A stretch of 64,000 bases of DNA from the NCBI RefSeq assembly GCF_004634385.1, contig NZ_CP037895.1, positions 434,001 through 498,000 of the forward strand. The letters run 5' to 3'. The notes beneath the pieces were generated by a model. That model was given only the letters and a program-made list of their open reading frames with translations. It did no database searches and was not told the DNA's origin. The translations under genes were made by a program, and so were the position numbers. Below, piece by piece: positions 22,143 through 38,589 of the stretch. The stretch's first letter is position 1, and every line of letters begins with the position of its first letter. This stretch comes from Thermaerobacter sp. FW80 (lineage in GTDB: Bacteria > Bacillota > Sulfobacillia > Thermaerobacterales > Thermaerobacteraceae).

Positions 22143-22521
22143 GCCCGCCCTCCGACCGATCCATCCCGCCCGATCCCCGGGAAGTGGTAGAGTAGGGCAT
22201 GGAGCGTGACCGGGGTGGACGGGCCTGCTGCACGCGGTGCGCGCGACCCGGTCCCGGTGTCCCGTGAGATCCCCGGTGCCCCGTCCGATGCGGGCAGCCC
22301 CGCGCCAGGAGCCGGGGGGCGGCTCTGGCTGGCCGGCGCACGGCCCTGCCCGGATCCCGACGCCCCAAGGGCAGCCCGGATCCCCGGGGGCGGGTGGGGC
22401 AGGGTCCCGGTCGGGGACCGAACCGGCCGGCGGCCAGGTCCCGGGACACCGCGCACCGGCGACGGGCCGTCGTCGCGGCCCGGCCGCGGTCCGAGCCCCG
22501 GGAAGGCGAGGGGGGTCTACG
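22143..22521. other. Gap between arginase and SelW genes
   Basis: GC-rich DNA with no supported gene or terminator. Confidence 0.4.
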
Positions 22522-22767
22522 GTGGACGAACGCATCCCGGTGCGCATCGAGTACTGCACGTCGTGAGGGTACCTGCCGCGAGCCGCCCGTGTGGCGGAAG
22601 AGATCCTCGCCGCGTACCCGGATCGCGTGGCCTCGGTGACGCTGGTCCCCTCGTCGGGCGGCCGGTTCATCGTCACCGCCGGGGATCGGGAGGTCTTCAA
22701 CAAGGCGGAGACGGGCCGGTTCCCCGAGGAGGGCGAGATCAGGCGGCGGATGGCGGAGATGTGGTAG
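22522..22767 (+). CDS. SelW/Rdx-family selenoprotein with in-frame TGA as Sec
   Basis: Small thioredoxin-fold redox protein. From a GTG at 22522 the frame gives VRIEYCTS, then TGA (22564-22566), then GYLPRAARVAEEILAAYPDR and on through VPSSGGRFIV to a TAG at 22765. The family motif is CXXC or CXXU followed by a hydrophobic-Arg-Ala segment, so the TGA lies exactly at the Sec position. Reading it as Sec gives 81 residues, typical for Rdx proteins. G-rich DNA precedes the start. A normal gene caller would miss it because each half looks like noise. Confidence 0.85.
22583..22597 (+). promoter_or_regulatory. Candidate bacterial SECIS hairpin
   Basis: CCGCC-CGUGU-GGCGG forms a small stem with a GU in the apical loop, beginning 16 bases after the TGA inside the coding frame. 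This distance and loop fit bacterial SECIS elements bound by SelB. The stem is short, so the call is tentative. Confidence 0.5.
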
Positions 22768-22805
22768 GGCAGGGTAGCCATCGCCCGACAGGCGATGGGG
22801 CGCGG

Positions 22806-22900
22806 GCAGGGGTTGCCCTCCCCGGCAGGCGACGGGACCCGGGCAGGGCAACCCCTGCTCCGCAGGCGACGGGGCCGGCATCGCCGGCCCCGTCGCCTGC
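22806..22900. repeat. Nested palindromes (REP-like)
   Basis: A perfect 18-base inverted repeat (GCAGGCGACGGGGCCGGC, loop ATC, 22862-22900) lies next to a perfect 14-base inverted repeat (22806-22819 with 22845-22858). The word GGCAGGCGACGGG recurs in both. There is no T tract, so this is not a clean intrinsic terminator. Confidence 0.75.
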
Positions 22901-22959
22901 CGGGCAACCGGGCGATCCGCCGCGTGCCAGCGAGCCGCCCCATGACGGCGGGCCGCGGC

Positions 22960-23087
22960 CGCAGCGGACCGGCCCGGGCGGGCCGAGTCGCCGCAGCGGA
23001 CCAGCCCGGCCGGATCGCAATCCCGCAGCGGACCAGTCCGGCCGGATCGCGCCGCCGCAGCGAACCAGCCCGGGCGGCCCGCGCCGC
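22960..23087. repeat. Four tandem 32-base units
   Basis: Units begin CGCAGCGGACC and differ at a few positions each. No coding frame is supported across them. Confidence 0.75.
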
Positions 23088-23253
23088 CATGGCGGACCCG
23101 ACCGCGCGGGCCGCATGAGCCCGCGCGTTTACGACGGCCGACGGCCGGGCTGGCGTCCGCCGCCCACCTCGCCGGCGGACGCCGGCCCGCGGGATCCGGT
23201 GGGGGCGCACTCCCTGCCGCGGCGACCCCTGCCCAGCGGCCGCGGACGGCACC

Positions 23254-23343
23254 GGCCACGGCCGGCCCTGGGCCTGCGCCCGCTGGCCACCCCTCGGGGC
23301 CGGGGTTCGGGCCAGGCGAGGCCACGGCCGGCCCTGGGCCTGC
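23254..23343. repeat. 24-base direct repeat, two copies
   Basis: GGCCACGGCCGGCCCTGGGC plus four bases occurs at 23254 and 23320. Together with the repeats above it fills the gap 22768-23403, where no gene is seen. Confidence 0.6.
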
Positions 23344-23403
23344 CCGCGTCCGCAACACCGCCGCCTCCTTCCGCCGGCCCGTCGCATCCCGGGCGCCCGC
23401 GCC

Positions 23404-24807
23404 TCAGTCCGGGCGCTCCGCGGCCCCGGCGCCGGCGCCCCGCGGCCCCCCCTCGCCCCGCCCTGCCACCGCCGCCAGGACCCGGCGGTCGAGGGAGGCC
23501 ATGGCCAGCCGCTCCAGGTCCGCGAGCCGAACCCAGGTGATGGTCTCCGCCGCCCACTCCGCGGTCGCCGCGGCGCACGCCCGCAACGGCCGCGCCGGCG
23601 CCGGCGACGGCGACGGCTCCCCCCCTTCGCCCGCGGAACCCCACGGGGCGAGGCCCTCGGCCACCGCCGCCCCGTCGGACCCCGTCGGCACCCGGGGCGG
23701 AGCCGGTTCGTGCGCGGTGGAGGGGTCCCCCGCCGCCGGCCGGCCAGCCGGCCGCGACGCCCCGCACCCACCCTGGGGCCGGCCCCGCCCACCCGCCGGT
23801 CCGCCGGCTGGCCCATCGGGGCGTTCCCCGGCGTCGTCCGCCAGGAACAGGCGCCAGTGCCACCGTCGATGGCTGAAGTCCCACCGTCCCTGGAGGGTCT
23901 CGCGCCGCCAACGCAGCGGTCGTCCCACGGCCGCCTCCAGGGCCGCCGCCAGCCGGTCCCGGGCCTCGAGCCACCCCTCCCCGTCGCGCCGGCGCGTGTA
24001 CGGGAGCGCCCACAGCCCGGCGAGCAACCCCTCCTGCGGCCGCCGCACCACCGCCACCCGCCCGTTCACCCGGCACCAGGCGATGGCCACGTCCTCCTCC
24101 ACCCAGCGGCCGGAGCGCCGCCGCACCGGCCAGGCCTCGGGGTCGCCGGTGCGCGCGGCGACGCACAGCTCCGCCAGCGGGCAGTCGCCGCAGCCGGGCC
24201 GCCGGGGGCGGCACACCGTGGCGCCCAGCTCCATCACCGCCTGGTTTAGCGCCCCGGGCCGCGGCCCGTCCACCAGGCGCCGCGCCAGGTCGTGCAACCG
24301 CCGCCGCCCGGCCGCCTGGTCGGCCGGTTCGTCCACCCCGAACACCCGGGCGAGGACCCGCTGGGCGTTGCCGTCGACGGCGGGCACGGGCAGGTCGAAG
24401 GCGATGCTCAGGACCGCGCCGGCGGTGTAGTCGCCGACCCCGGGCAGCGCTCGGACGGCTTCGGGATCCGGAGGAACCTGCCCGCCGTAACGCTCCACCA
24501 GGACGCGGGCCGCCTGGTGCAGCTGGCGGGCCCTGCGGTAGTAGCCCAGCCCCTGCCAGAGGCGGAGCACCTCGTCCTCGGAGGCCGCCGCCAGATGGGA
24601 GGCCGACGGGAATCGCTGGAGAAAGCGAACGTAGTATGGCAGGACCGTCTCCACCCGGGTCTGCTGGAGCATGACCTCCGACACCAGCACGGCGTAGGGA
24701 TCCCGGGTGCGCCGCCAGGGAAGATCTCGGCGGTGACGGTCATACCAATGGATCAGCCGGGAGCGGACCGCCTCCAGGTCCGGTCCCCGCATTGGAGCGT
24801 CGTTCAT
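23404..24807 (-). CDS. mutY: A/G-specific adenine DNA glycosylase
   Basis: Removes adenine mispaired with 8-oxoguanine. The helix-hairpin-helix LPGVGDYTAGAVLSIAF ends with the catalytic-region Asp (VPAVDGNAQRVL). The 4Fe-4S cluster is C-X6-C-X2-C-X5-C (CRPRRPGCGDCPLAELC). The C-terminal NUDIX-like domain that recognises oxoG (WDFSHRRWHWRLFL) is split by a Pro/Gly-rich insert of about 90 residues. The ATG at 24807 shares its CATG with the start of lepB on the other strand; an ATG at 24792 is an alternative. No good ribosome site is visible for either. Confidence 0.9.
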   Translation of the reverse strand: MNDAPMRGPDLEAVRSRLIHWYDRHRRDLPWRRTRDPYAVLVSEVMLQQTRVETVLPYYVRFLQRFPSASHLAAASEDEVLRLWQGLGYYRRARQLHQAARVLVERYGGQVPPDPEAVRALPGVGDYTAGAVLSIAFDLPVPAVDGNAQRVLARVFGVDEPADQAAGRRRLHDLARRLVDGPRPGALNQAVMELGATVCRPRRPGCGDCPLAELCVAARTGDPEAWPVRRRSGRWVEEDVAIAWCRVNGRVAVVRRPQEGLLAGLWALPYTRRRDGEGWLEARDRLAAALEAAVGRPLRWRRETLQGRWDFSHRRWHWRLFLADDAGERPDGPAGGPAGGRGRPQGGCGASRPAGRPAAGDPSTAHEPAPPRVPTGSDGAAVAEGLAPWGSAGEGGEPSPSPAPARPLRACAAATAEWAAETITWVRLADLERLAMASLDRRVLAAVAGRGEGGPRGAGAGAAERPD

Positions 24808-34109: not shown

Positions 34110-34500
<391 letters not shown>

Positions 34501-38514: not shown

Positions 38515-38589
38515 TGGAGCGGGAGACGGGAATCGAACCCGCGGCCTTCACCTTGGGAGGGTGACGCTCTACCACTGAGCTACTCCCGC
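38515..38589 (-). tRNA. tRNA-Gly (anticodon CCC), CCA encoded
   Basis: On the minus strand GCGGGAG pairs with CTCCCGC, the D arm is GCTCAGTGGTAGAGC, the anticodon loop CTCCCAA gives CCC, and the T arm GCGGGTTCGAATCCCGT is standard. TCCA ends the gene. Confidence 0.97.

Follow-up and report, generated by a model that had tools for sequence, protein, structure and literature searches.

An in-frame UGA in a predicted SelW-like selenoprotein gene of Thermaerobacter sp. FW80

The gene and its predicted product

The window, that is, the whole stretch of 64,000 nucleotides analysed here, carries on its + strand a SelW-like selenoprotein gene at 22522-22767, which comprises 81 codons plus TAG if one UGA is read as selenocysteine (Sec). 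The frame starts with GTG at 22522 and stops with TAG at 22765-22767, both read from the window + strand. Its 5' codons run from GTG GAC GAA to TAC TGC ACG TCG TGA GGG TAC. A purine-rich tract in the region GGCGAGGGGGG (22507-22516, + strand), read from the sequence preceding the GTG, is a likely ribosome-binding site, and in four close relatives a similar tract is followed by ATG or GTG at the equivalent place.

The sole internal stop in this frame is the TGA of codon 15 (22564-22566, + strand), which occupies the second active-site position of the Rdx/SelW motif, CXXC or CXXU. With TGA written as U, the translation is VDERIPVRIEYCTSUGYLPRAARVAEEILAAYPDRVASVTLVPSSGGRFIVTAGDREVFNKAETGRFPEEGEIRRRMAEMW, so that the motif is C12-T-S-U15, with a putative selenocysteine as residue 15; the C and U columns are both invariant in the alignment. 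The protein belongs to the Rdx family by scores exceeding the curated cut-offs of three models, namely Pfam Rdx (PF10262; 75.3 bits, E 1.2e-20, cut-off 22.6, with the whole protein length covered), NCBIfam NF041051 (100.9 bits, cut-off 88) and TIGR02174, CXXU_selWTH (65.6 bits, cut-off 34.2). In the alignment of relatives, the segment 5' of the TGA is conserved at the protein level together with the remainder. The first-pass annotation had described a hidden gene here, with an 81-codon frame, a single TGA at the CXXC/CXXU site and continuation to TAG. The frame and the family matches bear this out, the alignment with Rdx proteins places U at the CXXU position, and the word hidden is fair, since standard ORF calling ends at the TGA.

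The product is predicted to adopt the thioredoxin-like Rdx fold. An AlphaFold2 model, built with 31 alignment rows, has a mean pLDDT of 92.6 and places a core strand at residues 5-12, then a helix at 18-31, with the CXXU motif following the first strand. The top Foldseek matches of this model are the SelW-related bacterial structures 2obk, 2fa8, 2oka, 2ojl, 2p0g and 3dex (TM ca 0.9, rmsd ca 1 Å), and the next-ranked ones are MIEN1, mouse SelW and thioredoxins.

Some other features of the window can be mentioned here. Just 3' of the gene, the intergenic stretch 22768-23450 holds arrays of G+C-rich repeats, 32 and 37 bases long, in which strong inverted repeats occur, for example 22856-22879 with 22883-22906. 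Further away, on the - strand, lie a bacterial class A RNase P RNA (34111-34495, 270 bits) and a tRNA (38518-38589). The 380 bases upstream of the gene match no known RNA family in Rfam, and a T-box leader, considered for this stretch, was rejected; the hairpin discussed below likewise has no Rfam family, the weak microRNA matches being due to chance.

The hairpin downstream of the UGA

The first-pass annotation had also pointed to a small hairpin with GU in its loop 16 bases past the TGA, and it is found at 22583-22597 (+ strand), within the coding sequence. This putative SECIS element, CCGCC-CGUGU-GGCGG, has a 5-bp stem and a 5-nt loop, begins exactly 16 nt after the UGA, and has a folding energy of -8.8 kcal/mol. 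The published limits for bacterial SECIS elements (PMC13188914) are a loop of 3-9 nt, a stem of 4-16 bp, G in the first two loop positions, a spacing of 16-37 nt to the loop and an MFE <= -7.5. The hairpin lies within all of them, with a loop of 5 nt, a stem of 5 bp, G at position 2, a spacing of 21 nt and the energy given above.

It should be noted that DNA as rich in G+C as this yields hairpins cheaply, and a loose hairpin by itself is thus weak evidence. A loose 5-bp stem with G in the loop follows 195 of the 364 TGA triplets on the window + strand, and the folding energy of the single sequence (71 nt) is unremarkable (z -0.35), with a predicted pairing that differs from the hairpin. The SelW-like TGA is the sole one among these 364 with five Watson-Crick pairs at +17..+31.

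The comparison across relatives points beyond chance. It covers 64 distinct sequences from several phyla, which span close relatives to Desulfobulbales, Neomarinimicrobiota and Campylobacterales, and the stem and loop lie at nucleotides 17-31 past the UGA in all of them with zero gaps. In total, 98.1% of the alignment cells in the stem pair, and the covariation score is 0.484, compared to 0.134 in shuffles (0/500 reach the score) and a maximum of 0.135 in slid controls. RNAalifold recovers the same stem exactly. The pair 18-30 is seen as CG, UA, GC and AU and the pair 19-29 as UA, GC, AU and UG, while loop position 2 is always G. It is the conservation of the TGA and the covariation of the stem in these sequences that go beyond what chance would give.

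As controls, 14 Cys homologues were taken from plasmid records. The number of paired positions, out of 5, is 0-3 in ten of these and 4 in the other four, which include three Azospirillum copies, so that a SECIS element is unprovable from one sequence alone. Two TGA homologues, also from plasmid records, have 5/5 pairs. One of them, on Thermomicrobium roseum plasmid NC_011961.1 (L091, ca 408173-408409), corresponds to WP_012642931.1, which is annotated from a GTG past the in-frame TGA. IRIEYCTSU is encoded 5' of that start, and the TGA is followed by a perfect SECIS-like hairpin, so the annotation appears truncated. The other is a TGA-containing SelW-like gene on Cytobacillus spongiae plasmid NZ_CP089998.1 (L095, ca 370638-370850), which adjoins selD at a place where no gene is listed. 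Elsewhere, two tandem SelW-like UGA genes, ca 315 bases apart and each with its own hairpin, occur at L022 and L028 (G076:C23 and G059:C36).

The pairing may also bear on the encoded residues. The codons joined by the pair 19-29 encode Ala...Ala with G-C, Thr...Val with A-U, and Ser...Glu/Gly with U-A/U-G. The stem may dictate these residue pairs in the first helix across distant bacteria, the cause being RNA pairing and not protein contact, a reading of the alignment that we consider evenly balanced between right and wrong. In any case, the 64 segments, with one fixed register and compensatory changes, are a clear-cut case of an RNA signal embedded in a protein-coding helix.

Selenocysteine machinery and conservation of the UGA

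We now turn to the rest of the genome, an assembly of 3.04 Mb in 3 contigs that is 98.8% complete. A search for the four components of selenocysteine insertion located all of them: selA (583.5 bits), selB (330 bits, or 363.6 bits with a C-terminal piece added, for a cut-off of 242), selD (397 bits) and a single copy of the tRNA-Sec gene selC with anticodon tca (83.9 bits). This gene content supports the first-pass proposal that the organism uses selenocysteine.

The selD gene, which lies outside the window (G000:C1:1820371-1821306, L009), itself contains an in-frame TGA at the catalytic site, GKGGUGCK, as does selD in G001-G004 and in G006. It is thus predicted to be a second selenoprotein gene of this genome, and a UGA at this site is an independent indication of Sec use by the organism; counting the SelW-like gene, decoding of UGA is expected in two genes or more. 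Elsewhere in the genome UGA serves as a normal stop codon: both EF-Tu genes end in it, and a TGA reported within an EF-Tu match proved to be this stop. The best match to formate dehydrogenase alpha in the genome is under the cut-off and has no internal stop. A search for GrdB and PrdB gave no match, but the controls of that search gave no match either. Judging from the gene complement, insertion of selenocysteine at UGA is very probable in this lineage.

The comparison set consists of 151 genomes, this one included. An Rdx match is present in 50 of them and contains TGA in 48, the exceptions being a divergent CXXC protein in G102 and partial matches in G074. The TGA at the site is shared by the four genomes nearest to this one, all separate assemblies, of which three belong to its genus and one to its family. 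Downstream of it, the differences between this genome and G003 number 5/4/19 at codon positions 1/2/3, and a second pairwise example gives 1/4/22. This concentration at third positions indicates that the part past the TGA is translated. The in-frame UGA is conserved at a redox-active position, as in a bacterial selenoprotein gene.

The presence of an Rdx gene with TGA also tracks the Sec machinery. The selA score is over the cut-off in 45/48 of the genomes with such a gene and in 58/103 of the others (Fisher p 1.4e-6, uncorrected for kinship). Within the same order, the TGA-containing Rdx gene, selA and a selD with UGA are all found in G006, and none of the three is found in G005 (97% complete). 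The genomes with the Rdx TGA in which no selA was seen (G104, G121 and G139) are drafts, one of them 78% complete.

Alternative readings, mechanism and relation to known proteins

One rival reading takes the TGA for an error of sequencing, or for a nonsense mutation that recently turned a CXXC gene into a pseudogene. In its favour, TGA differs by a single base from TGC and TGT, and homologues with Cys occur elsewhere. The TGA is shared at this codon, though, by each of the four closest genomes and by 48/151 overall, which makes an error very unlikely. The downstream codon changes preserve the protein and the Sec machinery is complete, which leaves this explanation with hardly any probability. 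Just as improbable is genuine termination at the UGA, with an internal start from which the downstream part would be translated on its own. The Rdx family protein of T. roseum is indeed annotated as starting in frame past its TGA, but a product initiated there would be deprived of strand one and of the two active-site residues. The segment 5' of the TGA shows protein-level conservation together with the remainder, and residues 5-12 form a core strand in the model.

Readthrough of the UGA as Trp or Cys is slightly less remote, although still very improbable. The inserted residue is not decidable from sequence alone; against this reading, UGA is an ordinary stop here, as at the ends of both EF-Tu genes, the hairpin is conserved in the manner of a SECIS element, and tRNA-Sec, SelA and SelB are present. 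We conclude that 22522-22767 is almost certainly a functional SelW-like selenoprotein gene, and we infer that Sec is inserted at residue 15.

In the mechanism that we propose, SelB carrying Sec-tRNA(Sec) would bind the mini-hairpin, starting 16 nt past the UGA, and selenocysteine would be delivered at the UGA in place of termination. The product, a SelW-like selenoprotein of 81 residues, would have a thioredoxin-like fold with CXXU as its active site and would probably act as a small thiol/selenol oxidoreductase in which Cys12-Sec15 cycles between the reduced and the selenenylsulfide forms. A redox function is also what the CXXU motif has suggested for the SelW-like family, whose function is described as unclear (PMC1088965).

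SelW-like bacterial selenoproteins with CXXU have been catalogued previously (PMC1794560, PMC1088965, PMC2398784, PMC13188914), and the present gene is thus a further member from another lineage. The hosts in the 2006 survey include Symbiobacterium thermophilum and Desulfotomaculum reducens (PMC1794560). Among the selenoproteins of the Sargasso Sea and GOS data, the SelW-like family is the most abundant, and it was listed in 2026 as "predicted with high confidence". Our literature search found no paper naming Thermaerobacter together with selenocysteine. The new member leaves the understanding of the family unchanged. It does give an intact gene where a standard ORF call would give a truncated or missing one, and the set of 64 sequences can be used for fixing annotations, such as that of T. 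roseum. It can be added that the catalogues compared give CXXU alone for this family, whereas a SelW-like locus on the - strand of one draft genome (L110, G106:C166:8000-8600) carries a TGA for each of the two active-site residues (EYUTSUGY, a UXXU motif), with one perfect SECIS-like hairpin, CCGCC AGUUU GGCGG; an assembly error is possible in this single draft.

Compared to the catalogued SelW-like bacterial selenoproteins (SELENOW-like, PF10262), the present gene shares the family models, the CXXU motif and a SECIS element in the coding region right past the UGA; the only differences are the host lineage and the G+C richness of its codons, and the mechanism would be alike. The Cys-containing Rdx structures 2obk, 2fa8, 2oka, 2p0g and 3dex have the same fold (TM ca 0.9) at 26-40% identity, but they have Cys where this gene has Sec, and the Cys homologues compared are without the conserved hairpin. 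Mouse selenoprotein W (2npb) is distant in sequence (a weak match, E 0.16) and related in fold (TM 0.62), and its SECIS element, being eukaryotic, sits in the 3' UTR.
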